Of a stretch of 64,000 nucleotides of DNA, positions 12,870-53,569 are shown piece after piece. This stretch comes from Terebella lapidaria (taxonomy: Eukaryota > Annelida > Polychaeta > Terebellida > Terebellidae). Below the pieces are notes generated by a model. It saw only the letters and a list, made by a program, of their open reading frames with translations. It had not been told where the DNA came from and made no database searches. The stretch is from NCBI GenBank assembly GCA_949152475.1, contig OX424566.1, positions 31,038,423-31,102,422 on the forward strand, written 5' to 3'. Made by a program: the position numbers and the translations under genes. How positions within the stretch are numbered: the first letter of the stretch is position 1; each line of letters begins with the position of its first letter.

Positions 12870-13955
12870 TTAGGCCAAGGGCCAAAGATAGTTTACCGGA
12901 CAATGTTTAATATTTTAGATGTTAGCCAGGTCACTGGTTAAAGTCAAGGTCAGAAGAATATTCAGCATATATAATATTAAGCATATATCATGTCCACAGT
13001 TGATTGCTAAGCTGTAAATTCAAAACAGATAGATATTAGCAATTTTGTGCTGTGGCCTTGAAAATGAAGGCAAAAGGTCAAATTCAAGGTCATCAAAATA
13101 TTCAGTGTATATCATTTTCTATATGTGCACAATTGATTCCCAAGCCATACAGTCAATAGAGGAGCAAGATATGAGCCAGTTTGTACTTGGACCTTGAAAA
13201 TGAGGTCAGAGGTCAAATTCAAGGTCACGAGAATATTCAGCATATATCATTTCCTATATGTCCACAATTGATTCCTAAGCTGTAAAATCGATAATAAGTG
13301 AGATATTAGCCACTTTGTCCTGTGACCTTGAAAATGAGGTCAAAGGTCAAATTCAAGGTCACGACAATAATTTGCATATATCATTTCCTATATGTTCAGA
13401 ACTGATTCATAAGCCGTAAAGTCGATGACAAGCGAGATATTAGCTATTTTGTCATATGACCTTGAAAATGGGGTCAAAGGTCAAATTTAAGGTCATCAGA
13501 ATAATCAGCATATATCATTTCCTATATGTCCACAATTGATTCCTAAGATGTAGAGTCGATAATAAGCGAGATATAAGCCATTTTGTCCTATGACCTTGAA
13601 AATGGGGTCAAAGGTCAAATTCATGGTCATCAGAATATTCAGCATATATCATTTCCTATATGTCCACAATTGATTCCTAAGCTGTCAATAATAAGCAATA
13701 TATAAGCCATTTTGTGCTCTGACCTTGAAACTGAGGTCAGAGGTCAAATTCAAGGTCACGAGAATATTCAGGATATATCATTTCCTATATGTCCACAATT
13801 GATTCCTAGTCTCTAATCTCAATATTAAGTGAGATATTAAGCATAATGTGTCCCATTATGAGGCATAGGAGAATTTACGTGGGAAAGTCCCATTTGGGCC
13901 GAGTTTGGGCCAAAATGGCCCACTTCGAGCGATTCAAGCGAAACGAAATTTATAG
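12870..13955 (+). repeat. 5' part of a palindrome-ended repeat copy with array
   Basis: The head TTAGGCCAAGGGCCAAAG plus TTTACCGGACAATG starts at 12870. Seven ~134-bp units follow (12920-13820), then the start of the common tail (13815-13950). The copy is cut by the retrotransposon at ~13956, so its 3' end may be the later tail pieces near 18.2-18.7 kb. Confidence 0.7.
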
Positions 13956-15815
13956 AAATTTATATGGTTCCCACAGATTTCACTGATTTCTTTAAATCTA
14001 TTATGCAGTTATCAGGTGCATTGTCTAAGGAACAAGAAGTTATCGCCCGAAAGGTTGATCAATGGTATTCTGAGGAACATGTCTTTGATCCGGAGATAGT
14101 TGGCTTTACTCCTGAGCTAGTTGATGAATATATTAAATCCTTGAACACTGGTTGTTCTCCCGGTATGGATGGTATCACCTCGGAACATTTACAGTATGGT
14201 AACACTGAATCACTACGGAACTGTTTGTCGGATCTTTATAATATTCTGCTTAAGTATTCTTATATCCCTAATATATTCTGTTGCGGTGTGATCGTTCCCA
14301 TTCTTAAGAAGTCCTCGTTAAATCCAAATGTTGCTTCTAACTATCGACCCATCACTCTGAGTTCAGTTCACAGTAAGCTAGTTGAGATGCGGTTACTTCC
14401 ACAAAATGAGGTTGCGGATAGTTAGTTCGGTTTCAGGCCAAAGCGTGGCACTGCCTTCGGATGTACCTTACTGAACGACATAATGAGATATTTTGACCAC
14501 AAACGGAGTCCACTATATTTGTGTAGTCTGGATGCAGAAAAGTGTTTTGATAGCATTTGGCACCCTGCCCTCTTTTATAAACTTAAAAATAAAGTCCCAG
14601 ATATATATTGGAGGTTCCTTCTCACATGGTATAGTAGTCTAAGAGCTGTTGTTCGCTGGAAGGGTCAGTATAGTCATTCATTCTCTGTTACTCGTGGCAC
14701 AGTATTTTATCGCCACAGCTGTTTAATATTTTTATAGATGAATTACTTGAAGAATTGCAGCATACAAACTTTGGTGTGTCCATAGGAGGTGATAACTATA
14801 CATCTTTTGCCTATGCCGATGACATTACGGTATTCAGTGCTACAGTCCCCGATCTTCAGGTTTTAATTGATAGATGTGTAGATTATGCAAGAAAGTGGCG
14901 TTTTAACTTTGGCATCAAAAAAACTAAATGTATGGTAGTTGGAAATAATTTATTCAAGGAGGAACCACATTGGAACCTTGGATGTCATGTTATAGATAAT
15001 GTTTCATCTGTGGATATTCTAGGTGTAACATTTAATAGTAATTGTAAATTTAACTCTCATGTTAGTAATCGCATTCAAAAATGTTACAGAGCCTTTCATT
15101 CCTTGCGAGACTGTGGATTTTCCTACCCAGGTCTAGACTGTGATGTGAAGTCATACATGTGGAAATCATTGTGCCTACCGGTATTAACATATGGATCTGA
15201 GTCTATTCATGTTGGTGTAAACGAAATTAAGAAAATGGAAACATGTCAGGGTAATATTATTAAACAAAGCCTAGGCCTAAGTAAGTCAGCCAGATCAACT
15301 AGCTTATTACATGCCTTGGGTATAAAGAAAATTACAGATGTCATATCACATAATGTGTTATCATTGTGGAATAGATTGTTTAGTGTAAAGTCACCAACTA
15401 GAACTCTCTGCTCATATTTTTATTCCTTATACCTACAAGGTGTTGTCATTCCTGGTACTTTACTGAGTAAAGTTGTTCTGTCTGGGCACTCGCCTTCAGA
15501 GTGTGCTCTCCGTAGAACCAAATATATCCCACATCATGATGTAAACATTGGATTAGTGGACTCACTACGTACTGTCCTTCTCAGTGAAAATTTTATGAAA
15601 CCCTACTCGGAAGAATACCACCTTGCAAAACTTTTAACCAAGTCATATTGATGTGAATGTTGTACTAAAGTGCCTAATTTTTAGGGGTCTACCGTCTCCT
15701 TAGACTGCCTGCATGTATACACTATCCTGATGAATGTGTGTTTTGTATGAATGGTTTTATTGTATTTTTATGTACTTCCCCAATCATGGGGGTTGAATGA
15801 AATAAATAAAAAAAT
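13956..15815 (+). pseudogene. Non-LTR retrotransposon, 5'-truncated, RT domain nearly intact
   Basis: It would encode a reverse transcriptase of the LINE type. Visible in order: 'SPGMDGITSEHL' (~14156-14192), 'SNYRPITLSSVHSKL' (~14336-14380), 'LDAEKCFDSIWHP' (~14528-14566), 'FAYADDITVFSA' (~14807-14842) with the catalytic ADD, and a thumb and C-terminal region to a TGA at 15651. Only two lesions were found: an in-frame TAG at ~14424 and a +1 T in 'GTATTTTATCGCC' near 14700-14712. The 3' end is an AAATAA-rich tail (15799-15815). It is inserted in the repeat mosaic and younger than the element at 10.1 kb. Confidence 0.88.
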
Positions 15816-17110
15816 AAAAAATTAGCCCAAGGGCTAAGAAAGGTTACCGGACAATATATATTTTAGATATTAGTATTTTGTCCCGTGACCTTTAAAAAAC
15901 GTCATTGGTCAATTCAAGGACACGATAATATTCGGCATATGTCATTTCTAGTATGTCCACAATTAATTCCTAAGCTGTGAAGTCAATAATAAGCGAGATA
16001 TTAGCCATTATGTCCTGTGACCTTGAAAATGAGGTCAAAGGTCGAATTCAAGGTCATAGCAATATTCAGCATATATCATTTCCTATATGTTCATAATTGA
16101 TTCCTAAGCTGTAAAGTCCATAATGAGCAAGCTATTAGCCATTTTGTCCTGTGACCTTGGAAATTAGGTCAAAGGTGAAGTTCAAGGTCATGACAATGTT
16201 CAGAATATATCATTTTCTATATGTCCCCAATTAATTGCTAAGCTGTAAAGTCGATAAAAAGCGAGATATTACCCATTTCGTTCTCTGACCTTGAAAATGA
16301 GGTCAAAGGTCAAATTCAAGGTCATAGCAATATTCAGCATATATCATTTCCTATATGTTCATAATTGATTCCTAAGCTGTAAAATCGATAATAAGCGAGA
16401 TATTAGCTATTTTGTCCTGCGACCTTGAAAAGGAGGTCAAAGGTCAAATTCAAGGTCATGACAATAATCTGCATATATCATTTCCTATAAGTTCATAATT
16501 GATTCCTACACTGTAAAGTCAATAATAAGCAAGATATTAGCCATTTTGTGCTCTGACCTTGAAACTGAGGTCAGAAGTCAAATTCAAGGTCACGAGAATA
16601 TTCAGCATATATCATTTCCTATATGTCCACAATTGATCCCTAAGCTGTAAAATCGATAATAAGGGAGATATTAGCCATTCTGTGGTGTGACCTTGAAAAT
16701 GAGGTCAAAGGTCAAATTCAAGGTCATCAGAATATTCGGCATATATCATTTCCTATATGTCCACAATTGGTTCCTAAGCTGTAAAGTCGTTAATAAGCAA
16801 GATATTAGACATTTTGTGCTCTGACCTTGAAACCGAGGTCAGATGTCAAATTCAAGACCCTGAGAATATTCAGCATATATCATTTCCTATATGTGCACAA
16901 TTGATTCCTAGTCTCTAATCTCAATATTAAGTGAGATATTAGGCTTAATTTTGTCCCATTATAAAGGATAGGAGAATTTAACATGGGAGAGTCCCATTTG
17001 GGCCGAGTTTGGGCCCAAAATGGCCCACTTCGAGCGATTCAAGGGCAACGAAATTTATACATGTCACAGGGGCACATAAGAGGAGTGTTATGCATCAATA
17101 AGAAAACTAG
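15816..17110 (+). repeat. Palindrome-ended repeat copy, head plus array
   Basis: The head TTAGCCCAAGGGCTAA (a perfect palindrome) plus AGGTTACCGGACAAT is at 15822-15856. About 8 units of the ~134-bp array (15880-16915) and the common tail to about 17110 follow. Units carry TGACCTTGAAAATGAGGTCA and AGGTCAAAGGTCA. Confidence 0.75.
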
Positions 17111-18739: not shown

Positions 18740-20936
18740 AAAAACTGTGAAATGAGACTCCTTGTTAGACGAGACCTAATTACCTTGGCGAACATTGATG
18801 TCCTATTTATCGTCTATGTAGCCATAATCTTGCGTTTGACCCCTCGAGACTGAGCTTGAGACCTCCATATAACCAAAACTAATAGCTATCATGGCTTCAT
18901 CGTAAAACATGTGCACACACAGAAATTTTCATATCATTCTAGAACCGAGACAAGGAAGAACCTATCAAGATAGAGGTGTGACACGCTTAGTATCCGTCAA
19001 TCTTCATTAGACATATGTAATTACAAACTTAACACACTCTAATTTAGGCATCTTTTATTAGATATCATAATTGCATGCCATCTGTAGGCAGATATACACA
19101 GTTTTGTATGTACAAATAAGATCCCATGCATAATTAACATATGTACTTGAATATTATTTTTTGCCCTCCACAAGGCATACAACATGGAACTACATGTATG
19201 GACATTTGACAGTATTTGGGACTCGTTTTACAGATGTAGAGTTTCTGTACGCTTTCATTTGACATGATCTGCCTTCGTATTCTAAGGACGTGGTAAACTA
19301 CTTTTTTATACCAAATTCAGGAACCATTACACTCAGTAGTTAGGGGAATATGGGCAGATATAAAGATTCTTGCCGCTTTGTAAATATGACTAGATGCTGG
19401 AGCTTGAAGCTTGGGAACAATCATGTGTACTTATCGACGCCTTTGACGGCGCCACAATATTTTCTGGTGTCATATTCACTTGACGAGCAAATCCTCGCGA
19501 ATAGTTCTGCAAAGTATACACATATGGAAAATTAAATGCATTTTGGACACTATCCTGGCAAAAAGATTCGCAATTTGAGAAGCAAGAAATATATTCTGCA
19601 TATATGCTTTAATGTTCAGGACTGTCAATCTACTAGTATGTTGCAAATATGTAGAATAAACAGTAGAAAGGTATTATGAGCAATCGTAACATCAATAGGA
19701 CTGTATAGCAATATGCTTGAAAGCAGTTTGGGAAATACCAATATAATACAGAGCACAGCCTTTTCTGAAATACAATTCAAAATGTCTAGCATATATTCTA
19801 GAATATTGGCAAAAAAGATGCAAGTTGTTTCATAGTAAAAAATTTTGAAAGAGGGAGAATCAGTGAAAGCTGACAAAATCGAAACATGTAATACAAAAAT
19901 ATGGCTGTTCAATGGACTATTGTAATGATATTGGGAGGGTCCGACATACTATCACAATCACTGAATAGTAATAGCATGGAAATACAAAGACAAAATTAAA
20001 GCCTCCAGTTATATAAGGTCAATGCTGTTAAAAAATGACTGAAAATAAACTGCCAGCCTTCTGAGGGCGTTATATCGACCGTAATCTTTCAAAATATCAA
20101 CAACACATCAAGTCATTCTCCTGGCACCAGGGATACACTGTACATGTGGTACAGATGATTCATGGCACCGTACATAGTCTTTTGTCTGTGTTTATGGCAG
20201 CAGATACATACATCATTTCCAAAATATACCATCAACAAATCACACGGAAACCTGTTAATACACAACTTGTGGTTTAAATCATATACAAAATACAAATAAT
20301 ACGATATTCATAATCTACATACACATTCTTTTTTTTGCGAAAAACAGGCCTATGTACAAATTTTATGACATGAAAAACCAATCAAGCTTATACACATAAT
20401 CATTATAATCAGTGGTTTATATCAAGATGATTCCAACATGCAAACATTTTTCGGTGACACTAATATTTCCTAAAAAAAAGTACTAGAACTTGCACACGCA
20501 CATTCACACAACACACAGCCAGACAGTAGTAAAAGTAATACTGATTATGTACAACACAATGGAAGTGAAATTGCAAGTCACGGGATTGCTTCTTCATGTT
20601 TGGACCACATAATTATTTTCTTCATGGGTAAAAAACGAAACGGAAACAAAACAAAAGATTAAAACAGAAGTACAGTACACATGTTACAGCAAAACGTACT
20701 TCACTTTCGTTTTTGCAATGTTATGGCTCAGTCAACAAATCCGAATACACATGATTTATAAAATGTCTTGAATTCATAAATAGGAGTTTCCGTTCATCGC
20801 AGCAAAATTCTTGCACAAAGTGATGGAGAAACCAAAGGGAGAAAATCAACACATAATGATTATCAATTGTCATGTTTATAAACATATATTCAAGACAATA
20901 ACATTGTGACATGTAGATGATAATTTGACACATGTA
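18740..20936. other. Region downstream of Cip4, no gene seen
   Basis: This is AT-rich single-copy-looking DNA. On the minus strand it follows the Cip4 stop codon and minisatellite and could include distal 3' UTR. An AATAAA on that strand sits at 19054-19059. Short ORFs here (for example 19625-19912) have no recognisable content. Confidence 0.4.
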
Positions 20937-21500
20937 GCCACCAAGCAGATATCCACAAGATATCCACTCAGCCACCAAGCAAATATCCACAAGATATCCA
21001 CTCAGCCACCAAGCAAATATCCACAAGATATCCACTCAGCCACCAAGCAGATATCCACAAGATATCCACTCAGCCACCAAGCGGATATCCACAAGATATC
21101 CACTCAGCCACCAAGCAGATATCTACAAGATATCGACTGAGCCACCAAGCAGATATCTGCAAGGTATCCACGAAGCGACCAAGCAGATATCCACAAGATA
21201 TCCACTCAGCCACCAAGCAGATATCTACAAGATATCCACTGAGCCACCAAGCAGATATCCACAAGATAGACTGAGCCACCAAGCAGATATCTACAAGATA
21301 TCCACAGAGCCACCAAGCAGATATCCACAAGATATTGACTGAGCCACCAAGCAGATATCCACAAGATATCGACTGAGCCACCAAGCAGATATCCACAAGA
21401 TATCCGCAGAGCCACCAAGCAGATATCCACAAGATATCGACTGAGCCACCAAGCAGATATCTACAAGATATCCACAGAGCCACCAAGCAGATATCCACAG
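20937..21500 (+). repeat. 34-bp minisatellite, about 16-17 copies
   Basis: The unit begins GCCACCAAGCAGATATCC and ends AGATATCCACTCA, 34 bp. Variants include AAATATCC, ATCGACTGA and CACAGA. Because 34 is not a multiple of three, long ORFs on both strands cycle through the frames and are artefacts. It lies 558 bp beyond the Cip4 stop codon, inside its possible 3' UTR. Confidence 0.95.
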
Positions 21501-21856
21501 TTAACACACAATCATCATCAACAGCATGGATTTGCATAATACATTCATAACGATAAAAATCTTAGACTACAAGCTAGTAAAACACTTCCAAACTGTGAAT
21601 ATGCATGCTGGATACCCTTACAGAGCTATCATCACCACAATCAATGCAATATTTGTTCCTACTTTTCATTCACTGAATGAAAGAATCTCCTACAATGTAT
21701 ATATACAATTGGAGTTTTGAACATAGCACAAGAACACTTAGGGATCATACAAAAACATTCGTTTTTCTCACAAAAACAATCTGATGACAAGTTTTTTATC
21801 CATTACATTATCAGCATTACATTCATTTGTTACATCACAAACTTGCAGATTTCACT

Positions 21857-40200: not shown

Positions 40201-43200
40201 ATGTTTTGTTTAGAATATAACGAACAGTAAGATGTTCTATGCACATAATATATTTAACATATAGGTGTTTTACTGAGGCAAATGTAGCTTTCATGGCTTC
40301 GGCGAGCACGATTCGCGCTGATTTAGGAAAAAAAAAAGAAAGAAAAAATTCGCATCACCGCATCACTTTTGGAAGACCATTGTAACCAGAAATATATATT
40401 TTTTTTTTTGGCCTAATGTAAGAGCATGTCCATCCTGACAGATAGACTAGTACACGTACAATATATGAACAAATCGCATGACTTTGTGACCTCACAAGAA
40501 TCATGGCATGTATACATGGTTTAGATGTATGTATCTAAAATATCTTTCTGATGGCTTCATGGCTCCACTTTCATTAATTGAAGTCAATCTGCATAATTTG
40601 TGAACAATTTATCCAGTCTAACATGTATACATCAGATTCAAATAGGAAAGTGTCTTACACCTCAGATTTCTCTGTTCATTTAACAACACCTGGAAGTATT
40701 TTTAATCATAACAGCACTTATCAAATATGTCAAACAAGACTTGGTTGTTGAAGTACATGCCCTGATACTCAGCTACTCATTGTACTCAATGAGTAATACA
40801 GAAAGAGGCTGACAAATTATGAACAAGTACATGTTCATATGCATCTTCATGAAGAACACTCATGTCACTTACATGATGTCCACAACTTGGACTTCCTTAT
40901 TACATGCAGTAGTTGTATTAAGTTTTCTATCCCACGCGATCCAATAGCTCGAGACAGAGCATGTACACTAGTAGGTCAGATTCATATAAATGACTCGTAG
41001 GAATGGTAATGTGCATCTACATACACACAAATTGTATATTAGGAACAACTGTCATAAAAACTTTACTGCCCATTATCAATGGTATACTGTTCATGACAAA
41101 ATCTTTGGTATGAATTAATTGATCAAATTTCTGTGCTTCAAAGAATTTTTAGCAGTATATTAACAGCTTCACACAAACTTCTTTGGGTTCTACATGTATA
41201 AGTTGATAGAATACAGTTTCAAAAGCATCAAATATGATGAAAAGATTATATCCATGTTGTGGCCAGGCCAAATGAGTGATGTACTAGACATTTCAACATG
41301 ATTAATCCACAGTTCATTTGCATGACCGACCACTGACTTTGTATTCTGCTTGAGCCACATTGCCACAATGTACAACACTGTTACAAATATGGAAAAACAA
41401 AACATGAGTCCTGTTATAACACTACATGTACTTTTTTTCAAATTCACATGGTCTCAAATGAAGAAGATGTTTCAGACGCTATTGATCAACAGAAAATTCT
41501 TTCACGTACCCATGCTAAATTCCTTCACAAAACGCGCTGAAATTTCCGAAAGTTTTTCCCCGAACCATCCATCACCTGGCCGCCATACTTGGAGGATGCC
41601 AAGTTTAACAGACTAAATACCGGCGGACTCCCCTACATGTACTTGCGATGTTTTCAGACACCCTTTGGCACGCTTTGTGGCACTATACTTCCTCGAATAG
41701 CAGATCGGAGGAAGTGTCGGGATCAACACACGGCTATTTCCAGTTTTGCTTTCCTGTATAGATGTATGATGTTTACTGGAAGGTTCACAATATGTTTATT
41801 TTTCCGCCCAGTCGGAAGTATATCTGGATATACATGTGTGAACCTGACTTAAAATGATTTGAAATATATAATACACTGAAATGTATTGCATCTTTATTAT
41901 GGCACACTGATGATCTACCAGAAAATCACATGTATTTTTACATGTAATTTACATGCTTTGTTGCAGTATACAATACATATATCAATATAGTTCACATGTT
42001 TTTATTAACACAATCATACAATCCCTATCAATATCATGCTATTTCAGCCATCATCCTGTCAGTAGTCTAAACCTAGTTCCTTGCCCTGGTTTTCACTCTG
42101 CTATGAGCATGATGAGTAATCCATCTCCCATACTCAGATACTGCTTCAGTTGTCCCACTCTCTGGTGAGATCCGTTGATTTCCTTCTGTATCTGCTACAA
42201 CATGCAGCCATCCACGATAGGATCTCGACTGTTATGACTGGACCAAGGCTAATTTCCTGATCTTTTCCCTGATTAGACCTAGATATTATGGTATATGTTC
42301 CATGGTAACGCCCATGAAACTTTTACCATGATAAGAGATAGGCATCAAACAAGGGTATTTTCATGGGTTTTATTAGTGATGTTCATGGCATACATGGCAT
42401 ATGTCGTAATGCCACGAGACCACGTCCATGGTCCATGGTCCGCACAGTCTACCCAATGTGACAATAGTGACATGCATGGCACCAGAAAGTCAGGGCTATT
42501 TTCAATGCCACCAATGCCATCATATGTCACAATGTCACGAGACGTCCACGACTGTGCCATCATGGCATATTAGCTGTCACCATCCGAACAGCATGTCCAG
42601 CCTGACATGATGACACCAGAACCCCAGAGAGGGCTATTTTCTATGCCACCAATGTCATCATATGTCACAATGCCACGAGACGTCCACGACTGTGGCATCA
42701 TGGCATATTACCTGCCACCATCCGCATGGCATGTCCAGCCTGACAGGATGACACCAGAGCCCCAGAGAGGGCTATTTTCAATGCCACCAATGTCATCATA
42801 TGTCACAATGTCACGAGACCCCACGACTGTGCCATCATGGCATATTATCTGCCACCATCCGCACAGCATGTCCAGCCTGACATGATGACACCAGGACCCC
42901 AAAGAGGGCTATTTTCTATGCCACCAATGTCATCATATGTCACAATGCCACGAGACGTCCACGACTGTGCCATTATGGCATATTACCTGCCACCATCCGC
43001 ACAGAATGTCCAGCCTGACATGCATGGCAGCAGAACCCCAGAGAGGGCTATTTTCTATGCCACCAATGTCATCATATGTCACAATGCCACGAGACGTCCA
43101 CGACTGTGCCATCATGGTATATTACCTGCCACCATCCGCACAACATGTCCAGCCTGACATGATGACACCAGAACCCCAGAGAGGGCTATTTTCTATGCCA

Positions 43201-46200
43201 CCAATGTCATCATATGTCAAAATGTCACAAGACACGCACGACTGTGCCATCATGGCATATTACCTGCCACCATCCGCACAGCATGTCCAGCCTGACATGA
43301 TGACACCAGAACCCCAAAGAGGGCTATTTTCTATGCCACCAATGTCATCATATGTCACAATGCCACGAGACGTCCACGACTGTGCCATTATGGCATATTA
43401 GCTGCCACCATCCGCACAGCATGTCCAGCCTGACATGATGACACAAGGACCCCAGAGAGAGCTATTTTCTATGCCACCAATGTCATCATATGTCACAGTG
43501 CCACGAGACGTCCACGACTGTGCCATCATGGCATATTACCTGCCACCATCCGCACAGAATGTCCAGCCTGACATGCATGGCACCAGAACCCCAGAGAGGG
43601 CTATTTTCTATGCCACCAATGTCATCATATGTCACAATGCCACGAGACGTCCACGACTGTGGCATCATGGCATATTACCTGCCACCATCCGCACAGCATG
43701 TCCAGCCTGACATGCATGGCACCAGAACCCCAGAGAGGGCTATTTTCAAAGCCACCAATGTCATCATATGTCAAAATGTCACGACACCCACGACTGTGCC
43801 ATAATGGCATATAACCTGCCACGATCCGCACAGCATGTCCAGGCTGGCATGCATGGCACCAGACCCCCAGGGAGGGCTATTTTCAATGCCACCAATGTCA
43901 TCATATGTCACAATGTCACGAGACGCCCACGACTGTGGCATCATGGCATATTACCTGCCACCATCCGCACAGCATGTCCAGCCTGACATGATGACACAAG
44001 GACCCCAGAGAGAGCTATTTTCTATGCCACCAATGTCATCATATGTCACAATGCCACGAGACGTCCACGACTGTGCCATCATGGCATATTAGCTGCCACC
44101 ATCCGCACAGAATGTCCAGCCTGACATGCATGGCACCAGAACCCCAGAGAGGGCTATTCCACCAATGTCATCATATGTCACAGTGCCACGAGACTTCCAC
44201 GACTGTGCCATCATGGCATATTACCTGCCACCATCCACGACTGTGCCATCATGGCATATTACCTGCCACGATCCGCACAGTATGTCCAGCCTGACATGCA
44301 TGGCACCAGAACCCCAGAGAGAGCTATTTTCAATGCCACCAATGTCATCATATGTCACAATGTCACGAGACGCCCACGACCGTGCCATCATGGCATATTA
44401 CCTGCCGCCATCCGCACAGCATGTCCAGCCTGACATGCATGGCACCAGAACCGCAGAGAGGGCTATTTTCAATGCCACCAATGTCATCATATGTCACAGT
44501 GCCACGAGACGTCCACGACTGTGCCATCATGGCATATTCGCTGCCACCATCCGCACAGAATGTCCAGCCTGACATGCATGGCACCAGAACCCCAGAGAGG
44601 GCTATTTTCTATGCCACCAATGTCATCATATGTCACAATGCCACGAGACGTCCACGACTGTGCCATCATGGCATATTACCTGCCACCATCCGCACAGCAT
44701 GTCCAGCCTGACATGATGACACCAGAACCCCAGAGAGGGCTATTTTCAAAGCCACCAATGTCATCATATGTCAAAATGTCACAAGACACGCACGACTGTG
44801 CCATAATGGCATATTACCTGCCACGATCCGCACAGTATGTCCAGCCTCACATACATGGCACCAGAACCCCAGAGAGGGCTATTTTCAATGCCACCAATGT
44901 CATCATATGTCACAGTGCCACGAGATTTCCACGACTGTGGCACAGCATGTCCAGCCAGACATGCATGGCACCAGACCCCCAGGGTGGGCTATTTTCAATG
45001 CCACCAATGTCATCATATGTCACAGTGCCACGAGACACCACGACTGTGCCATAATGGCATATTACCTGCCACGACCCGCACAGTATGTCCAGCCTGACAT
45101 GCATGGCACCAGAACCCCATAGAGGGCTATTTTCAATGCCACCAATGTCATCATATGTCACAGTGCCACGAGACGTTCACGACTGTGGCATCATGGCATA
45201 TTACCTGCCACCATCCGCACAGCATGTCCAGCCTGGCAGGCATGGCACCAGACCCCCAGGGAGGGCTATTTTCAATGCCACCAATGTCATCATATGTCAC
45301 AGTGCCACGAGACGTCCACGACTGTGGCATCATGGCATATCACCTGCCACGATCCGCACAATATGTCCAGCCTGACATGCATGGCACCAGAACCCCAGAG
45401 AGGGCTATTTTCAATGCCACCAATGTCATCATATGTCACAATGTCACGAAACGCCCACGACCGTGACATCGTGGAATATTACCTGCCACTATCCACACAG
45501 TATGTCCAGCCTGACATGCATGGCACCAGAACCCCAGAGAGGGCTATTTTCAATGCCACCAATGTCATCATATGTCACAATGTCACGAAACGCCCACGAC
45601 CGTGACATCGTGGAATATTACCTGCCACTATCCACACAGTATGTCCAGCCTGACATGCATGGCACCAGAACCCCAGAGAGGGCTATTTTCAATGCCACCA
45701 ATGTCATCATATGTCACAATGTCAGGAGACTTCCACGACCGTGACATTGTGGCATATTACCTGCCACGAGCCACACAGTATATCCATCCTTATATATATA
45801 AATGTACATGATAAACAGTTCAATACCAATATATTTTGTTTTATTAAGTTCGAAATTCATGCACAATGTATGCGAATACATGTGTATATATAACAGCTTA
45901 TAGTTGACTATGAACAAAAAAATTTATACACATACATGTTATGAGACACATATACAATATCTAACATGTTATAATGAAATGAAGGTTGCATGTGCCTCTT
46001 TGAGTCATATGAATTGTGCATCAATGATATGTACATAGATCTATAAAATATATAAGAAACAATAGATCTACCTGATCGCGGAAATAAGCCACAAAGAAGG
46101 TTCACGCTATCCAAAGAAAATATTTAATTAGAATCAGAATATTGTAAAAACACCAACACCCACTAGCTTATTGGATCACATACCACACATACTTGCATGA

Positions 46201-49200
46201 TATAAAATGACAGAGGGACGACGTGAAGTCGATGGGTACGTTTTACAGTAATCAATTAAGTCTTTTCTTCACAATTGTCAGTACCTTATCAAATGTTAAC
46301 TGTACCAGTGGCAAAGTCATGTGTATCTCATCGAAATATTCAATAATTGTGTTAAATGCAACCATAACTGTGTTTGCCAGCTTTCTGATATCAGTTATTT
46401 CAGGATAATATTGACCTATCAGTGCATGTAGTACTAACAGAGAAAACGAATTGGCTCTGTTTGAATCAACTTCAGCTCTTTCTTGACTGTTCAGGAAGTA
46501 ATTGTTCAAGTTCGACAGGTCCATTCTCAACGAGCTGTACGAATTCTTTTTTCGTTTCTTCCGTGAATGCACCATATTCGCACATGTATGTGCCTTTGCT
46601 TTCTCCCTTATTCCATATGGGTTTGAACAAGACACACGTTTGCATAATGCTGTACAGCTTCGTTTAGATTTCAAACATGGACATCGAGACACCCTTGGCT
46701 TTGCATGTAATGACGATGAACGACATATGTCTATACAGCTTACCAAATTTGTGTTTTTATATTCACCACACCTACATTTATGTGCTGATTCATTGGGATC
46801 AGACATAGACACATATGAACTGCCAGTATCTCCTGGTACAGTCTGAAGTTATGTTTCTGTGTTGTTCAAACTTGATCCTTGATTGGGAATTAATACATCA
46901 TAATGACCACTACCAACCTTAGCTCTCTCTGGGGTCCTTGTGTCATCATGTCAGGCTGGACATGCTGTGCGGATGGTGGAAGGTAATATGCCATGATGCC
47001 ACAGTCGTGGAAATCTCGTGGCACTGTGACATATGATGACATTGGTGGCATTGAAAATAGCCATCTCTTATCTGGGGTTCTGGTGTCATCATGTCAGGCT
47101 GGACATGCTGTGCGGATGGTGGCAGCTAATATGCCATGATGGCACAGTCGTGGACGTCTCGTGGCATTGTGACATATGATGACATTGGTGGCATAGAAAA
47201 TAGCCCTCTCTGGGGTTCTGGTGCCATGCATGTCAGGCTGGACATACTGTGCGGATCGAGGCAGGTAATATGCCATTATGGCACAGTCGTGGACGTCTCG
47301 TGGCATTGTGACATATGATGACATTGGTGGCATAGAAAATAGCCCTCTCCGGGGTTCTGGTGCCATGCATGTCAGGCTGGACATTCTGTGCGGATGGTGG
47401 CAGGTAATATGCCATGATGGCACAGTCATGGACGTCTCGTGGCATTGTGACATATGATGACATTGGTGGCATAGAAAATAGCTCTCTCTGGGGTCCTTGT
47501 GTCATCATGTCAGGCTGGACATGCTGTGCGGATGGTGGCAGGTAATATGCCATGATGCCACAGTCGTGGGCGTCTCGTGACATTGTGACATATGATGACA
47601 TTGGTGGCATTGAAAATAGCCCTCCCTGGGGGTCTGGTGAAATGCATGCCAGGCTGGACATGCTGTGCGGATCGTGGCAGGTTATATGCCATTATGGCAC
47701 AGTCGTGGGTGTCGTGACATTTTGACATATGATGACATTGGTGGCTTTGAAAATAACCCTCTCTGGGGTTCTGGTGCCATGCATGTCAGGCTGGACATGC
47801 TGTGCGGATGGTGGCAGGTAATATGCCTTGATGCCACAGTCGTGGACGTCTCGTGGCATTGTGACATATGATGACATTAGTGGCATAGAAAATAGCCCTC
47901 TCTGGGGTTCTGGTGCCATGCATGTCAGGCTGGACATTCTGTGCGGATGGTGGCAGGTAATATGCCATGATGGCACAGTCGTGGACGTCTCGTGGCATTG
48001 TGACATATGATGACATTGGTGGCATAGAAAATAGCTCTCTATGGGGTCCTTGTGTCATCATGTCAGGCTGGACATGCTGTGCGGATGGTGGTAGCTAATA
48101 TGCCATAATGGCACAGTCGTGGACGTCACGTGGCATTGTGACATATGATGACATTGGTGGCATAGAAAATAGCCCTCTTTGGGGTTCTGGTGTCATCATG
48201 TCAGGCTGGACATGCTGTGCGGATGGTGGCAGGTAATATGCCATGATGGCACAGTCGTGCGTGTCTTGTGACATTTTGACATATGATGACATTGGTGGCT
48301 TTGAAAATAGCCCTCTCTGGGGTTCTGGTGTCATCATGTCAGGCTGGACATGCTGTGCGGATGGTGGCAGGTAATATACCATGATGGCACAGTCGTGGAC
48401 GTCTCGTGGCATTGTGACATATGATGACATTGGTGGCATAGAAAATAGCCCTCTATGGGGTTCTGGTGCCATGCATGTCAGGCTGGACATTCTGTGCGGA
48501 TGGTGGCAGGTAATATGCCATGATGGCACAGTCGTGAACGTCTCGTGGCACTGTGACATATGATGACATTGGTGGCATAGAAAATAGCCCTCTTTGGGGT
48601 CCTGGTGTCATCATGTCAGGCTGGACATGCTGTGCGGATGGTGGCAGCTAATATGCCATGATGGCACAGTCGTGGACGTCTCGTGGCATTGTGACATATG
48701 ATGACATTGGTGGCATAGAAAATAGCCCTCTCTGGGGTTCTGGTGCCATGCATGTCAGGCTGGACATACTGTGCGGATCGTGGCAGGTAATATGCCATTA
48801 TGGCACAGTCCTGGTGTCTCGTGGCACTGTGATGACATTGGTGGCATTGAAAATAGCCCTCTCTGGGGTTCTGGTGCCATGCATGTCAGGCTGGACATGC
48901 TGTGCGGATCGTGGCAGGTAATATGCCATGATGCCACAGTCGTGGACGTCTCGTGGCATTGTGACATATGATGACATTGGTGGCATAGAAAATAGCCCTC
49001 TCTGGGGTTCTGGTGTCATGATGTCAGGCTGGACATGCTGTGCGGATGGTGGCAGGTAATATACCATGATGGCACAGTCGTGGACGTCTCGTGGCATTGT
49101 GACATATGATGACATTGGTGGCATAGAAAATAGCCCTCTCTGGGGTTCTGGTGCCATGCATGTCAGGCTGGACATTCTGTGCGGATGGTGGCAGGTAATA

Positions 49201-52200
49201 TGCCATAATGGCACAGTCGTGGACGTCTCGTGGCATTGTGACATATGTTGACATTGGTGGCATAGAAAATAGCCCTCTCCGGGGTTCTGGTGCCATGCAT
49301 GTCAGGCTGGACATTCTGTGCGGATGGTGGCAGGTAATATGCCATGATAGCACAGTCGTGGACGTCTCGTGGCACTGTGACATATGATGACATTGGTGGC
49401 ATTGAAAATAGCCCTCTCTGGGGCTCTGGTGTCATCCTGTCAGGCTGGACATGCCATGCGGATGGTGGCAGGTAATATGCCATGATGCCACAGTCGTGGA
49501 CGTCTCGTGGCATTGTGACATATGATGACATTGGTGGCATAGAAAATAGCCCTCTCTGGGGTTCTGGTGCCATGCATGTCAGGCTGGACATTCTGTGCGG
49601 ATGGTGGCAGGTAATATGCCATGATGGCACAGTCGTGGACGTCTCGTGGCATTGTGACATATGATGACATTGGTGGCATAGAAAATAGCTCTCTCTGGGG
49701 TCCTTGTGTCATCATGTCAGGCTGGACATGCTGTGTGGATGGTGGTAGGTAATATGCCATGATGCCACAGTCATGGGCGTCTCGTGACATTGTGACATAT
49801 GATGACATTGGTGGCATTGAAAATAGCCCTCTTTGGGGTTCTGGTGTCATCATGTCAGGCTGGACATGCTGTGCGGATGGTGGCAGGTAATATGCCATGA
49901 TGGCACAGTCGTGCATGTCTTGTGACATTGTGACATGATGACATTGGTGGCATTGAAAATAGCCTTCCCTGGGGGTCTGGTGCCATGCATGCGAGGCTGG
50001 ACATGCTGTGCGGATCGTGGCAGGTTATATGCCATTATGGCACAGTCGTGGGTGTCGTGACATTTTGACATATGATGACATTGGTGGCTTTGAAAATAGC
50101 CCTCTCTGGGGTTCTGGTGCCATGCATGTCAGGCTGGACATGCTGTGCGGATGGTGGCAGGTAATATGCCATGATGCCACAGTCGTGGACGTCTCGTGGC
50201 ATTGTGACATATGATGACATTGGTGGCATAGAAAATAGCCCTCTCTGGGGTTCTGGTGCCATGTATGTCAGGCTGGACATTCTGTGCGGATGGTGGCAGG
50301 TAATATGCCATGATGGCACAGTCGTGGACGTCTCGTGGCACTGTGACATATGATGACATTGGTGGCATAGAAAATAGCTCTCTCTGGGGTCCTTGTGTCA
50401 TCATGTCAGGCTGGACATGCTGTGCGGATGGTGGCAGCTAATATGCCATAATGGCACAGTCGTGGACGTCTCGTGGCATTGTGACATATGATGACATTGG
50501 TGGCATAGAAAATAGCCCTCTTTGGGGTTCTGGTGTCATCATGTCAGGCTGGACATGCTGTGCGGATGGTGGCAGGTAATATGCCATGATGGCACAGTCG
50601 TGCGTGTCTTGTGACATTTTGACATATGATGACATTGGTGGCTTTGAAAATAGCCCTCTCTGGGGTTCTGGTGTCATCATGTCAGGCTGGACATGCTGTG
50701 CGGATGGTGGCAGGTAATATACCATGATGGCACAGTCGTGGACGTCTCGTGGCATTGTGACATATGATGACATTGGTGGCATAGAAAATAGCCCTCTCTG
50801 GGGTTCTGGTGCCATGCATGTCAGGCTGGACATTCTGTGCGGATGGTGGCAGGTAATATGCCATGATGGCACAGTCGTGAACGTCTCGTGGCACTGTGAC
50901 ATATGATGACATTGGTGGCATAGAAAATAGCCCTCTTTGGGGTCCTGGTGTCATCATGTCAGGCTGGACATGCTGTGCGGATGGTGGCAGCTAATATGCC
51001 ATGATGGCACAGTCGTGGACGTCTCGTGGCATTGTGACATATGATGACATTGGTGGCATAGAAAATAGCCCTCTCTGGGGTTCTGGTGCCATGCATGTCA
51101 GGCTGGACATACTGTGCGGATCGTGGCAGGTAATATGCCATTATGGCACAGTCGTGGTGTCTCGTGGCACTGTGATGACATTGGTGGCATTGAAAATAGC
51201 CCTCTCTGGGGTTCTGGTGCCATGCATGTCAGGCTGGACATGCTGTGCGGATCGTGGCAGGTAATATGCCATGATGCCACAGTCGTGGACGTCTCGTGGC
51301 ATTGTGACATATGATGACATTGGTGGCATAGAAAATAGCCCTCTCTGGGGTTCTGGTGTCATGGTGTCAGGCTGGACATGCTGTGCGGATGGTGGCAGGT
51401 AATATACCATGATGGCACAGTCGTGGACGTCTCGTGGCATTGTGACATATGATGACATTGGTGGCATAGAAAATAGCCCTCTCTGGGGTTCTGCTGCCAT
51501 GCATGTCAGGCTGGACATTCTGTGCGGATGGTGGCAGGTAATATGCCATAATGGCACAGTCGTGGACGTCTCGTGGCATTGTGACATATGATGACATTGG
51601 TGGTATAGAAAATAGCCCTCTTTGGGGTCCTGGTGTCATCATGTCAGGCTGGACATGCTGTGCGGATGGTGGCAGATAATATGCCATGATGGCACAGTCG
51701 TGGGGTCTCGTGACATTGTGACATATGATGACATTGGTGGCATTGAAAATAGCCCTCTCTGGGGCTCTGGTGTCATCCTGTCAGGCTGGACATGCCATGC
51801 GGATGGTGGCAGGTAATATGCCATGATGCCACAGTCGTGGACGTCTCGTGGCATTGTGACATATGATGACATTGGTGGCATAGAAAATAGCCCTCTCTGG
51901 GGTTCTGGTGTCATCATGTCAGGCTGGACATGCTGTTCGGATGGTGACAGCTAATATGCCATGATGGCACAGTCGTGGACGTCTCGTGACATTGTGACAT
52001 ATGATGGCATTGGTGGCATTGAAAATAGCCCTCTCTGGCTTTCTGGTGCCATGCATGTCACTATTGTCACATTGGGTAGACTGTGCGGACCATGGACCAT
52101 GGACGTGGTCTCGTGGCATTACGACATATGCCATGTATGCCATGAACATCACTAATAAAACCCATGAAAATACCCTTGTTTGATGCCTATCTCTTATCAT

Positions 52201-53569
52201 GGTAAAAGTTTCATGGGCGTTACCATGGAACATATACCGATATTATGATGTCAGACTATGATACTTTTGTGTGACATCCAACAGAAGCTTTTGATGAAGA
52301 GGGTTGTAGCAGTCCGAACCAAAGGTCATAGCCAATAACCGGTAAATGAGATCATTCTAAAATGTGCATGATAACAGATGCATAAAAACAAACAGAAGGT
52401 TTGTAAAAGTATCAGATATTGGAGTATGACGCCATGGAAACAGATGATGTAACACCATATTGCACAATATTGCAGTTTTTGTCCATAATATTGGTGATTT
52501 TGTTCAAAACCGATAAACCACAAACAGGTCTGCACGGTCTGCATCACATGTACAGGTCTTGATTTGTGATGTTCATGATAGATTTTACAAAATATTCGTC
52601 ATTTTCATACTCACAAATTCAAAACAACTTCACATTTATTAAACCATATTTGCATTGTTCTCGCAGGAGTTTAATCAATGCGGTATGTTGGTTCAACCCC
52701 TGCCGGTCATGGCTGAGTAGTAATCTGTATGGTGTAAAATGGAGAAACCCCTCGAGTAACAGGGAGTTATTCAACATGGTCGGGGCCCCTGTTCCTCGGG
52801 ATTTCTCCATTTCTTATATCACTCAAACTTCACACATGACAGACACACACCATTGCATGGCAAAGATTAGGCCTTTACCCCAACCCTTATGAAGATCCCC
52901 TTGAACTTACTTTAGTTTGCTGGCGTACTCATTCTCAATTTGGCATCGTTCCTTGATGAAATGTGCATATTTTTCACAGAAGTCTATCCCTTTTTGTGTA
53001 TGCCCTGCTATATTGTCAAACTGGTCCTGAAACAACAAGAACAAAACATACATGTATATAGCTCTTCGACAGTGCTTTGAAACATATCACAATTCGCGAA
53101 ACATGATGGATAACATAATTTTGTAGGCCACAGATCATGCAGATGAACAAGTAGTCATGAGATGTCCTAGGCTACCATGTGGGTATCCACCCTGAAATGT
53201 ACATATAATCTTGTAAGATAAATTTCTTGCTCTGCTCTGCTTCCACAAACTGCATTTGCACCTACATGGCTTTGATGGAAAACTGCTACATTAGTGAAAT
53301 ATACAGAAAAGAAAATACACAGCTTATAATGTACAGGTATGGATATTGATGAGTTTATTTTCCTAATTCGGCTCTCCAGCACACACTGACGCCATTGGAC
53401 GATCAGAGCGCGGACACACCTTGAGAGGCCAGCCCTTCATATTAGAGCCCCACACCAGGGTTTGATACGAAGTTGACAGTTCACTGAAGTTCTCGACACT
53501 CTTGCTGCGAAGCCTGTCGAGCGTTCCTGCCGAATGTTTCCATTCTTTCAGAACTCGTTTCTGAGCCAT
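22059..53569 (-). CDS. Cip4: CIP4/FBP17/TOCA-1 family F-BAR, HR1, SH3 adaptor (whole spliced gene)
   Basis: The protein family senses and bends membranes at endocytic and actin-rich sites. It binds active Cdc42 through HR1, and N-WASP/WAVE and dynamin through SH3. Fourteen exons with GT-AG borders and matching phases give 1782 bases, 593 residues: F-BAR about 51-310, linker, HR1 about 366-450, proline-containing linker (PPPP near 500), SH3 about 535-593. Clear family marks are DQFDNIAGHTQKGIDF, AGQHE, MPNIF, 'IERYKSGFSTPGDIPFED', LPPNQQKKKL, GDPASIDKQL, ALYDFD and 'GDGWTRVKRTSGEVGFVPTSY'. Length fits the family (about 550-620). Vertebrates have three paralogues; this reads as the single invertebrate type. 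Exon 1 is the only uncertain exon. Introns total about 30 kb. Confidence 0.95.
22583..22728 (-). CDS. Cip4: Cip4 exon 13, acidic linker and start of SH3
   Basis: Acceptor CCCATGCAG|TATCGT was chosen over the nearer CAAG because only it keeps phase. It encodes a PPPP stretch, an acidic segment (SFEDVVDDQDEFDF) and the first SH3 strand VIGSCLALYDFD. Donor GATG|GTGAGA. Confidence 0.93.
22960..23108 (-). CDS. Cip4: Cip4 exon 12, end of HR1 and serine-rich linker
   Basis: Acceptor GGTTGCCAG|GGTTAC, donor CACAG|GTAACC. It begins GYLAEVENR (family WLAEVE) and continues into a Ser/Asn/Pro-rich linker (MSKRMSNTSLSSAGTRGSNP). Confidence 0.92.
23391..23523 (-). CDS. Cip4: Cip4 exon 11, HR1
   Basis: Acceptor GGCAACAG|AGACGG, donor TATGAG|GTCAGT. 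It encodes GMTKMRDVYSQNRSLGDPAS, then IDKQLDQNAQKLDGFRKELQ and KYE. 'KM-x-DVY-x-x-N-x-x-x-GDPAS' is the family HR1 signature. Confidence 0.96.
23711..23823 (-). CDS. Cip4: Cip4 exon 10, start of HR1
   Basis: Acceptor CAACGCAG|ACCGAC, donor TCAAG|GTACAT, ending in phase 2. It encodes TDDARDDYSHLPPNQQKKKL, then NEKIDEFKQLIAKETAS. LPP-x-Q-x-KKKL-x-x-K-x-x-E is the beginning of the Cdc42-binding HR1 coiled coil. Confidence 0.95.
23824..28799. other. Cip4 intron 9
   Basis: Apart from the cassette-exon candidate I see no exon here. It contains a G11 run (25033-25043) and AT-rich unique-looking DNA. Around 24650-24920 there is a loose inverted arrangement of 'GCGACATG/CATGTCGC'-type words. Confidence 0.5.
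26218..26268 (-). CDS. Cip4: Possible Cip4 cassette exon (17 codons)
   Basis: On the minus strand, TTTGCTTACAG|CAATCC is a good acceptor, and GGCGG|GTCAGC, 51 bases on, is a plausible donor of the type used by exon 11. The exon is phase 0 at both ends, exactly what fits between exons 9 and 10, and encodes QSFKDLSPGGRRNGLWR without a stop. The vertebrate paralogues have alternatively spliced linker exons at this place. No transcript evidence. Confidence 0.4.
28800..28991 (-). CDS. Cip4: Cip4 exon 9, end of F-BAR and linker
   Basis: A 192-base, phase-0 exon. It begins DTKLVIERYKSGFSTPGDIP, then FEDLS (family 'YKSGF-x-x-PGDI-x-FED'), and continues into a basic linker KTKKSRAGLLGIFAGTK, equivalent to the KGKLWPF-like segment. 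Donor ACAAAG|GTGTGT. Upstream of the acceptor the polypyrimidine tract is a run of 21 C. Confidence 0.95.
29010..29030 (-). promoter_or_regulatory. C21 polypyrimidine tract before Cip4 exon 9
   Basis: A pure run of 21 G on the plus strand (C on the transcribed sense) lies 17-18 bases upstream of the exon 9 acceptor AG (28992-28993). It serves as the polypyrimidine tract and is likely length-variable. Confidence 0.6.
29411..29557 (-). CDS. Cip4: Cip4 exon 8, F-BAR C-terminal helix
   Basis: A 147-base, phase-0 exon. Acceptor CTCATTCAG|CAATTA, donor GCAGAG|GTAGGT. It encodes QLQTLEEKRVNTVQDFIKQS, then AEIERRTMPIINTCIDGI and TNASQSINAAE. Confidence 0.95.
29796..29924 (-). CDS. Cip4: Cip4 exon 7, F-BAR core
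   Basis: A 129-base, phase-0 exon. Acceptor TATTCCAG|TCGAAG, donor TTTAGT|GTGAGT. It ends RDHYEKLMPNIFS; the Y-x-x-x-MPNIF word is typical of the family. Confidence 0.95.
30880..32042. mobile_element. ~1.16-kb MITE-like element with ~140-bp terminal inverted repeats
   Basis: Left arm 30880-31020 begins TAGCGATCTTACGTTAATACG, and right arm 31905-32042 is its reverse complement with about 90% identity by eye. Both ends are bordered by TA, so a TA target duplication is likely, as in Tc1/mariner-type elements. The interior (31021-31904) has no transposase. It sits in Cip4 intron 6, between exons 7 and 6 on the map. Confidence 0.8.
32846..32950 (-). CDS. Cip4: Cip4 exon 6, F-BAR core
   Basis: A 105-base, phase-0 exon. 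Acceptor TATTTCAG|AGTAAA, donor GAGAAG|GTAAGC. It encodes SKKQYEKSFKESEKTQENYK, then KADADIHLSRAEVEK, matching the family K-x-DADI-x-x-x-x-A-x-VEK segment. Confidence 0.95.
33132..33194 (-). CDS. Cip4: Cip4 exon 5, F-BAR core
   Basis: A 63-base, phase-0 exon. Acceptor GGTTCCAG|TACTTAC, donor GAAAAG|GTAATT. It encodes YLQDGAKQHSSLKSQIDQLE and K, corresponding to the family DGRKAQQ...LE segment. Confidence 0.93.
33492..33639 (-). CDS. Cip4: Cip4 exon 4, F-BAR core
   Basis: Acceptor CCCGCCAG|ATTC, donor AAAAAA|GTGCGT. It encodes FTCTRGFYRMLNELHDLAGQ, then HESIAECLSASIFRELQTL and VSELKQDRKK. LNEL-x-D-x-AGQHE is a family signature of F-BAR helix 2. Confidence 0.95.
34818..34862 (-). CDS. Cip4: Cip4 exon 3
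   Basis: A 45-base exon with acceptor TGTTTTCAG|AAAG and donor GAAGA|GTAAGT. It encodes KLVKNYKPKKADDE, completing the KL-x-x-LVKNY-x-PKK motif begun in exon 2. Phases 2 and 2 are preserved. Confidence 0.93.
34863..38043. other. Part of Cip4 intron 2, no gene seen
   Basis: AT-rich sequence with many ACATGTA words and a few short ORFs (for example 35285-35677) that show no domain or codon pattern I recognise. Confidence 0.45.
38044..38615. mobile_element. MITE, 572 bp, ~180-bp terminal inverted repeats, TA-flanked
   Basis: The ends are TATACTCTGATTTTTCTAAC and its reverse complement. Inverted similarity continues inward through 'CTCGTTTACACTG', 'TTTGCGATGC' and 'AAACGGCAATTTTC'. The central ~200 bases are unique. 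A diverged second copy lies at 57515-58155. Confidence 0.85.
39078..40092 (+). mobile_element. Complete single copy of the palindrome-ended repeat, no long array
   Basis: The head TTAGCCC-AAA-GGCTAA is at 39060-39075. TAGGTTACCGGAC follows at 39078-39090, and GTCCGGTAACCTA at 40080-40092 is its exact reverse complement. The interior resembles 4480-5280 and then the standard tail with (GGAC)n at 40020-40045. It has no ~134-bp array but has several CAAGGTCA words. It lies in Cip4 intron 2. ORF 39202-39825 runs over repeat sequence and is not taken as a gene. Confidence 0.8.
40093..42281. other. Part of Cip4 intron 2
   Basis: Mostly AT-rich without features. The stretch 41500-41720 is richer in G+C and has promoter-like words on the minus strand (described separately). 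Confidence 0.45.
41500..41720 (-). promoter_or_regulatory. Possible internal promoter with first-exon-like ATG
   Basis: On the minus strand the region carries two ETS-like GAGGAAGT/ACTTCCTC words, a YY1-like TATGGCGGCC and, near 41515, ATGGGTACGTG, an ATG next to a donor-like GTACGT. It could be an alternative start for Cip4 downstream of exon 2 or unrelated. The phase does not fit exon 3 if GTACGT is used. Confidence 0.2.
42282..42289 (+). repeat. Left target-site duplication GATATTAT
   Basis: The eight bases directly before the left end are identical to 52239-52246, directly after the right end. Confidence 0.85.
42470..45790 (+). repeat. 139-bp satellite array, left arm (~24 units)
   Basis: The unit runs through 'CCAGAGAGGGCTATTTTC', 'TGCCACCAATGTCATCATAT', 'GTCACAATGCCACGAGACG', 'TGCCATCATGGCATATTACC' and 'GCACAGCATGTCCAGCCTG'. 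Repeats start 139 bases apart (for example 45294, 45433, 45572, 45711). Units fall into variants (CATGATGACACC or CATGCATGGCACC; GTGCCACG or GTCACG). As 139 is not a multiple of three, the many ORFs up to 187 aa cycle frames and are not genes. Confidence 0.95.
45791..46251. other. Left part of the central spacer
   Basis: AT-rich, not repeated. No gene seen. Confidence 0.5.
46252..46806 (-). CDS. Cysteine-rich CXC-like protein, 184 aa, central cargo of the composite element
   Basis: Function unknown. From the ATG at 46806 the N-terminal 65 residues hold KCRCGEYKN, C-x3-C and RCPCLKSKRSCTALCKRVSC, then SNPYG. This C-x-C...C-x-C-x6-C-x3-C-x4-C-x-NP-x-G pattern resembles CXC (tesmin/TSO1-like) zinc clusters seen in chromatin proteins and in some transposon proteins. 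A basic patch follows (SRKKRKKN, ~81-88), then a helical-looking C-terminal half without motifs. The frame is open upstream to a possible acceptor TTCAG|ACTG at 46843, so this may be a last exon. It starts only ~110 bases from the right array. No transposase catalytic motif was found. Confidence 0.6.
   Translation of the reverse strand: MSDPNESAHKCRCGEYKNTNLVSCIDICRSSSLHAKPRVSRCPCLKSKRSCTALCKRVSCSNPYGIREKAKAHTCANMVHSRKKRKKNSYSSLRMDLSNLNNYFLNSQERAEVDSNRANSFSLLVLHALIGQYYPEITDIRKLANTVMVAFNTIIEYFDEIHMTLPLVQLTFDKVLTIVKKRLN
46919..52075 (-). repeat. 139-bp satellite array, right arm (~37 units), inverted relative to the left arm
   Basis: It has the same unit as the left arm, reverse-complemented. 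Variant units are ordered so that the outer few kilobases mirror the left arm. Blocks recur 2343 bases apart (47665/50008, 48381/50724, 48658/51001, 48771/51114, 49066/51409), showing a higher-order duplication of at least ~1.8 kb, which makes this arm longer. Confidence 0.95.
52239..52246 (+). repeat. Right target-site duplication GATATTAT
   Basis: Identical to 42282-42289 and directly adjoining the right terminal inverted repeat. Confidence 0.85.
52247..52910. other. Cip4 intron 2, 5' part
   Basis: No exon or repeat recognised. It leads to the donor of exon 2 at 52910. Confidence 0.5.
52911..53026 (-). CDS. Cip4: Cip4 exon 2, F-BAR helix 1
   Basis: Acceptor TTGTTTCAG|GACCAG, donor AAA|GTAAGT, ending in phase 2. 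It encodes DQFDNIAGHTQKGIDF, then CEKYAHFIKERCQIENEYASKL, the start of the F-BAR domain with the KER-x-x-IE-x-x-YA pattern. It is followed by an 18-kb intron holding the 42.3-52.2 kb element. Confidence 0.95.
53420..53569 (-). CDS. Cip4: Cip4 exon 1 (tentative), residues 1-50
   Basis: The ATG at 53569 is directly preceded in frame by TAA. The open frame ends ...GWPLK at a donor AAG|GTGTGT and joins in phase 0 to exon 2. Family members usually begin with a short M-x-W-G-x-x-L-W peptide right before D-Q-F. Here that place is taken by NMKGWPLK after a 43-residue extension that I do not recognise. Translation might start at the internal Met. Another first exon elsewhere is possible. Confidence 0.45.

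Follow-up and report, generated by a model that had tools for sequence, protein, structure and literature searches.

What kind of unit has satellite arrays for arms? The question is raised by a 64,000-nucleotide stretch of the Terebella lapidaria genome (GCA_949152475.1, contig OX424566.1, positions 31,038,423 to 31,102,422; hereafter the window), in which two oppositely oriented arrays of one satellite face each other across a short spacer. An initial annotation, made from the sequence alone, had proposed a transposon whose terminal inverted repeats (TIRs) are the arrays themselves. Here we examine this unit, the window element, within one genome assembly—it is a real transposon, very probably a non-autonomous palindrome from a family of foldback-type DNA transposons that probably falls within the IS256/Mutator (MULE) clan.

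The window element runs from 42290 to 52238 (9949 bp) and has mirror-image ends; the span first given, 42282-52246, captured the architecture but includes both target-site duplications. The left end begins with GGTATATGTTCCATGG at 42290, and the reverse complement of this sequence finishes at 52238. Over their first 700 bp the two arm ends align with 694 identical positions, 2 mismatches, and a single gap of 4 bases. The flanks carry GATATTAT exactly on both sides; given the base composition of the window, the chance of such an 8-mer match at fixed positions beside the ends is about 2e-5. The ends are formed by two identical outer domains, which are non-satellite but partly monomer-like, followed by arrays with a period of 139 in the left arm and 138 in the right. 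The arms are unequal in length (3.3 kb vs 5.1 kb) and also in monomer number. The layout is summarized in Table 1, together with the empty sites of two further members, which are referred to by labels such as C3.

Table 1. Positions and strands of the features discussed in the text.
Feature	Position	Strand	Remarks
Left target-site duplication GATATTAT	42282..42289	.	exact 8 bp
Left outer domain of 178 bp (A-type end), not satellite	42290..42467	+	bases 109-139 resemble the monomer (score 37, reached by 0/300 shuffles)
Left arm, ~24 copies of the 139-bp tandem repeat	42468..45790	+	A-type subfamily, 21/22 full monomers
Core (spacer), 1.13 kb	45791..46919	.	same as C1c core, fetched part of C8 core, and left part of C11 core
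198-aa frame, putative C-terminal remnant of the family transposase	46252..46848	-	longest frame in the spacer
Weak CXC match (MSL2), residues 20-79 of the 198-aa frame	46612..46791	-	E 0.0087, below Pfam cut-off
Right arm, ~37 copies of the same repeat, inverted	46920..52060	-	A-type subfamily, 37/37 full monomers
Right outer terminal domain, A-type end	52061..52238	-	matches the left domain at all 178 positions
Right target-site duplication GATATTAT	52239..52246	.	exact 8 bp
Paralogous empty site of C3	57514..57861	+	349 alignment columns (50 left, 299 right of junction), 96% identity
Paralogous empty site of C11	35571..35639	-	69 bp, gapless, 84% identity

The genome holds a family of such elements. 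Using the left 219 bases of the window element as a query against the 761.6-Mb genome (41 candidates, 40 scored), we found 40 end matches that make up 19 pairs and two single ends (C8 and C2b), that is, at least 21 loci—these counts are lower bounds, as stated by the search. The family ends are GGTATATG. Tabulating the ends with their flanking 8-mers genome-wide, as the initial annotation had suggested, turned up the further copies with 8-bp duplications on which its reading depended: 16 of the 19 pairs have an exact 8-bp duplication, C15 and C11 match at 7/8 positions, and C7c at 5/8. The 16 exact duplications are 78% A+T, compared with 58% in the flanks.

Joining the flanks of the 19 members and comparing them with the available sequence revealed paralogous empty sites for three insertions: C3, C11, and C7b. 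The C3 site aligns with one gap, away from the junction, and has a single copy of the 8-mer, CGATATTT, with one base different. The joined C7b flanks (70 bp) align to numerous monomers of a 134-bp satellite, in most cases without gaps. Because the targets of C3 and C7b are repeats, their empty sites are paralogous copies and not alleles. The 134-bp satellite is also arrayed in the window, at 5339-6676, 7158-7862, 8502-9380, 12928-13839, and 15865-16942. Several other candidate sites were dropped: the one for C9, in L022, is palindromic to the right flank of C9 itself, the C4a match has 68.6% identity with 59 gap positions, the C6 and C1d matches are short (20-31 bp), and further C3 matches are weaker.

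Members fall into two types based on their ends. In ten pairs both ends are of one kind (A)—the window element, C1a, C1b, C1c, C4a, C2a, C15, C9, C16, and C12—and in nine an A end is paired with a second kind of end (B): C3, C7a, C4b, C5, C11, C7b, C7c, C6, and C1d. The B end has its tip in common with the A end and diverges beyond it. All 15 members fetched whole have inverted arms of the 139-bp satellite, from about 1.2 to 8.7 kb in length, which bears out the architecture first proposed from mirror-image ends and an exact duplication. Foldback elements are characterized by long inverted terminal repeats made of tandem repeats, by target duplications of 8-10 bp, and by copy-to-copy variation in arms and middle; the family has all three, with duplications of 8 bp and cores ranging from none to 15.7 kb.

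The larger cores, including the largest, contain nested insertions. At the other extreme is C7a (7202 bp), which has an exact 8-bp duplication and two arrays that meet without any core, so that it consists of satellite only. The C11 core matches the cores of the window element, C1c, and C8 in its left part, and those of C9 and C4a in its right part; through it the cores of the window element, C1c, and C8 are linked to those of C9, C4a, and C3. Linked in this way through C11, they appear to derive from a single longer core by different deletions. A separate core group comprises C1a, C1b, C2a, C12, and C16. Among the nested sequences, the C4a locus (L014-L016), at 28.5 kb the largest member fetched, has a Gypsy-like frame of 1154 aa in its core (read by eye from the sequence), and the C15 core has a frame with a weak phage-integrase match, below cut-off.

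Did the arrays travel with the elements? The satellite monomers provide a tracer for their own history. We cut 746 full monomers (of 826 matches) from 14 elements; their mean pairwise identity is 91.6%, and in 13 of the 14 elements more than half of the monomers find their best match in another element (53.8 of 59 in the window element, ties shared). In A/B elements each arm has its own monomer subfamily, A or B, and these subfamilies are common to elements on different chromosomes. The labelling was assessed by leaving out each element in turn: of the 105 A-arm references 98 were called A, 2 B, and 5 tied, and of the 43 B-arm references 40 were called B, 1 A, and 2 tied. Members labelled later behaved as predicted, with 16/18 A in the A arm and 16/16 B in the B arm of C7c, 18/20 A and 26/30 B in the corresponding arms of C6, and 20/22 A in the A arm of C1d. 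That arm-specific subfamilies recur at loci on different chromosomes argues that the arrays predate dispersal: going by the monomer sequences, they existed in the shared ancestor, moved with the elements, and then changed length. This agrees with the original suggestion that the whole unit moved; its alternative, a smaller ancestor whose arms expanded later, is unnecessary, since arm-specific subfamilies were already present in the shared ancestor.

The same labels bear on the origin of the palindrome. A calls account for 517 of the 598 monomers from the ten palindromic members and for 58 of the 59 in the window element. The right arm of C4a, read from tip to core, is an A/B mosaic (18A-6B-18A-16B) with a 24-monomer duplication. 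A references (105) outnumber B references (43), which favours A calls, and the monomers were relabelled with 43 of each in 100 draws; the pattern holds and the A shares fall. In these draws A calls make up 81% of the left and 93% of the right arm of the window element and on average 74% of the A arm of C7c; the B arm of C6 is called A at 10%, and C4a monomers 19-24, its inner 16, and the B arm of C7c are never called A. Palindromic members that are mainly A on both sides, taken with the C4a mosaic, suggest that the window-element palindrome probably arose by arm replacement. In C4a, an outer B arm may have been replaced by A within the repeat, followed by a block duplication.

Whether the satellite also occurs freely was addressed with a 415-bp array piece as the query (451 matches; 32 of 44 candidates scored). 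The 150 of the 451 matches that are listed all lie inside family loci and, by a visual count, represent 20 of the 21 known ones; C11 contributes none of these 150, and none of them is an array outside family loci. With 301 matches beyond those listed and 32 of the 44 candidates scored, free arrays may therefore exist elsewhere. The initial annotation had linked satellite birth to transposition—this stands insofar as the arrays are carried by the element, but satellite that has been set free does not appear among the 150 matches.

Which enzyme could have moved these elements? The longest frame in the core of the window element, 198 aa on the minus strand, is overlapped by shorter plus-strand frames; judged by its sequence, it is the tail of the family transposase. 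Relatives combine an IS256/MULE-like DDE core with an OTU protease and a CXC domain, and a profile of the relatives matches the MSL2 chain 2lua (CXC domain, E 1.2e-4). Pieces from the family itself align to the relatives: DHTF, DNCC, and DLFH in C1d, and TNRNERLH in C11. One relative, P0013, has a sub-threshold match to Transposase_mut (E 0.0036). The predicted fold of another, P0012, matches over residues 24-469 PDB entries 6xgx, 6xg8, and 6xgw, which we take to be the IS256-family transposase ISCth4; the ISCth4 chain has about 400 residues, and the enzyme is bacterial and not known to carry an OTU or CXC domain. Weaker-scoring structural matches are to retroviral integrases and IstA, and besides ISCth4 and OTU domains none stood out. 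Mutator/MULE transposases (IS256 clan) have a C/D-x2-H motif between the second Asp and the Glu; DLFH is found at 326-329 of P0012 as well as in C1d, and D326, F328, and H329 are nearly invariant in A3. Target duplications in this clan are 8-11 bp, a range that the family's 8 bp fits. The Tm1 paper gives 9 bp as usual for the clan (PMC3169594). We conclude that the family enzyme probably belongs to the IS256/Mutator (MULE) clan, as modelled fold and motifs suggest.

The large cores of C3 and C9 were also considered as a source of the transposase. Of the 49 stop-free frames of at least 62 aa that were screened (38 of 44 from the C3 core, 6 low-complexity frames being left out, and 11 from C9-only parts under the same filter), none has a transposase domain; there is one reverse-transcriptase match, and four weak matches are to unrelated families. 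A related family, R, has three copies about 98% alike (L049 = C8:27.12M, L050 = C6:18.66M, L051 = C5:12.42M), each with a stop-free OTU-CXC frame of 727 aa. These frames adjoin an array of the 134-bp satellite also seen in the window on one side and, in two of the three copies as fetched, 53/105-bp tandem repeats on the other. Element ends and target duplications of family R were searched for around the genes and could not be fixed; with the ends unfixed and the 134-bp repeat common elsewhere, satellite arms as a property of family R are kept as a lead only.

Long inverted repeat arrays are difficult to assemble, and the inverted arms could reflect satellite sequence that was misjoined or collapsed during assembly, with no biological unit behind them. 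This is extremely unlikely given that the same architecture recurs at 15/15 whole loci with different arm lengths, cores, and flanks, that exact duplications accompany 16 of 19 end pairs, that the joined flanks of three members match empty sites, and that the two arms of the window element are unequal. A genuine element might instead have moved as ends and core only, with the arrays each growing in place after insertion. Arm lengths do vary widely despite near-identical cores—C2a has arms of 4.4 and 6.4 kb and C16 of 1.9 and 2.1 kb, with cores 99.3% alike—and C8 is the exception to the cross-element pattern, with 40.6 of 57 best monomer matches inside its own arm, which self-aligns over 4.3 kb at a 3.7-kb offset (98.6%). 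However, the A/B subfamilies common to several loci, the predominance of best matches elsewhere in 13 of 14 elements, and the rearranged left end and core that C2a and C16 have in common, at sites with different duplications, make growth in place very unlikely as the whole account; the arrays therefore predate the insertions, and in-place change is additional.

The nature of the enzyme and the role of the arms can be read differently as well. KDZ (Kyakuja-Dileera-Zisupton) transposases deserve consideration since Zisupton also makes 8-bp duplications (PMC12730594), and a KDZ assignment was first suspected from a frame in the C15 locus with the KDZ-associated CxC5 domain (E 4.6e-8). That frame, however, belongs to a distinct element that is inserted in the C15 arm and bounded by inverted ends of its own, GGCACAAAAACGTATC; 0 of the 14 genome matches to KDZ (PF18758; 29 candidates scored) lie in family loci, and the transposase pieces within the family match another DDE lineage. 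The assignment was rejected, and we give KDZ mobilization hardly any credence; the nested KDZ-type element itself lies at about 886-7123 of L019, within the satellite arm. Far more weight is due to the idea that selection, and not passive drift, maintains the satellite arms as multiple binding sites for the transposase, which we regard as a possibility, if a somewhat doubtful one. The Tetris and Galileo authors proposed the same for their repeats (PMC4079207, PMC3573991), every whole member keeps arrays on both sides, and a 31-base part of the terminal domain is monomer-like (0/300 shuffles); yet the outermost 60 bp show no similarity to the monomer above shuffles, and arm length ranges from about 1.2 to 8.7 kb.

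Several points weigh against the identification of the window element as a member of a mobile IS256/Mutator-type foldback family. Mobility is deduced from duplications, empty sites, and dispersed near-identical copies; the C7c duplication is poor, and six loci (C4b, C5, C7b, C1d, C2b, and C8) were only partly read. In the palindromic members 66 of the 598 monomers are called B and 15 tied; 24 of the 66 are in C4a, and the remainder are scattered or in short runs, as in C1b, C12, and the inner ends of one arm each in C9 and C15. End replacement is suggested by one mosaic arm and the subfamily pattern. As for the autonomous relative that the initial annotation envisaged, relatives with DDE, OTU, and CXC domains exist, but no complete family transposase frame was found in the members read; the full enzyme is pieced together, C1d having just the Asp motifs and C11 just the part from the Glu onward, and the OTU and CXC matches of the C11 frame are below Pfam cut-offs. 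The Pfam KDZ and MULE models have no match in the 9 relatives scanned. Finally, P0012 is about 26-33% identical to the family protein, and its model has a mean pLDDT of 71 and a pTM of 0.46.

For the foldback family as we understand it, the following course can be proposed. A DDE transposase with OTU-protease and CXC domains, of which broken pieces remain in several members, would bind the ends, excise the element, and insert it at A+T-rich sites, the stagger being 8 bp. Two unlike ends, A and B, may have bounded the ancestral element, enclosing arm-specific arrays on either side of the gene. Arms would grow and shrink in monomer blocks by exchange or slippage; recombination or template switching within the common repeat could swap the B arm for a second A arm and so create a palindrome; and internal deletions would have cut the gene down to its 198-aa tail.

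The initial annotation had held out the prospect of a new element type. Descriptions already exist of foldback elements whose arms consist of tandem repeats, with duplications of 8-10 bp and a proposed role in satellite origin (Tetris, PMC4079207; Tm1, PMC3169594; Galileo, PMC3573991), and the family is an extreme new variant of these, not a new kind. Tetris, a Drosophila virilis foldback transposon from which satellite DNA has been proposed to originate, resembles it in having an outer flanking domain, satellite-size tandem repeats (220 bp) in inverted arms, a variable middle, and 8-10 bp duplications; fibre-FISH shows long repeat arrays between two Tetris flanking domains, so that there is precedent for long arrays within such an element (PMC4079207). 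For Tetris, TIRs of up to 1,735 bp, three structurally complete copies, and no transposase are described, whereas the present family, compared by description only, has sequenced arms of up to 8.7 kb, 19 end pairs, and transposase pieces. Tetris repeats also occur in contigs without element flanks (PMC4079207), which was not seen here among the 150 listed of 451 matches.

Tm1, a Mutator/Foldback element of root-knot nematodes, has composite, foldback-like TIRs that vary in length and contain internal repeats, a Mutator-clan transposase (Phantom), 8-10 bp duplications, and asymmetric terminal motifs; it differs in its repeat motifs of about 14 bp and its Phantom-type protein, compared with 139-bp monomers and an OTU-CXC protein here (PMC3169594). 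Galileo (P superfamily, Drosophila) shares long, internally repetitive TIRs, arms of variable length, recruitment of extra sequence into the TIRs, and chimeric copies, but has a P-type transposase, 7-bp duplications, and TIRs of up to about 1.26 kb (PMC3573991). Cg_HINE elements (Crassostrea gigas Helentrons) likewise spread satellite-like arrays through a genome; their repeats are central in a Helentron, and the abstract describes no inverted arms or DDE transposase (PMC7492417). In our searches of open-licence papers we found no foldback family with arm-specific satellite subfamilies as a tracer, no core-less satellite-only foldback member, and no IS256-type transposase joined to OTU and CXC domains.

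The family provides a countable case of satellite arrays carried by an apparent cut-and-paste element, and illustrates how satellite DNA can be both transported and rearranged by the mobile element to which it belongs. Its two monomer subfamilies act as a built-in tracer in which arrays inherited through transposition and arm swaps are visible; the origin of foldbacks and the growth of arrays in mobile DNA are therefore directly testable. It also links an IS256/MULE-type transposase to OTU (deubiquitinase-like) and CXC domains. A broader proposal, speculative and in our judgement unlikely, is that animal OTU-CXC transposases form their own IS256/MULE branch with self-made satellite arms as a lasting working part, that a core-less satellite-only unit such as C7a is mobile, and that array recombination regularly makes palindromes. 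In its favour, the 727-aa frames of family R also adjoin kilobase tandem arrays; alternatively, C7a could have inserted with a core that was lost later.

Elsewhere in the window, a reverse-transcriptase-like region contains an exact 407-bp tandem duplication (10856-11670), and a reverse-transcriptase frame (14674-15651; RVT_1, E 1.6e-12) lies between 134-bp arrays. A 34-bp tandem repeat of 16.6 copies at 20936-21499 overlaps an open frame of 163 aa at 21070-21561 (minus strand).
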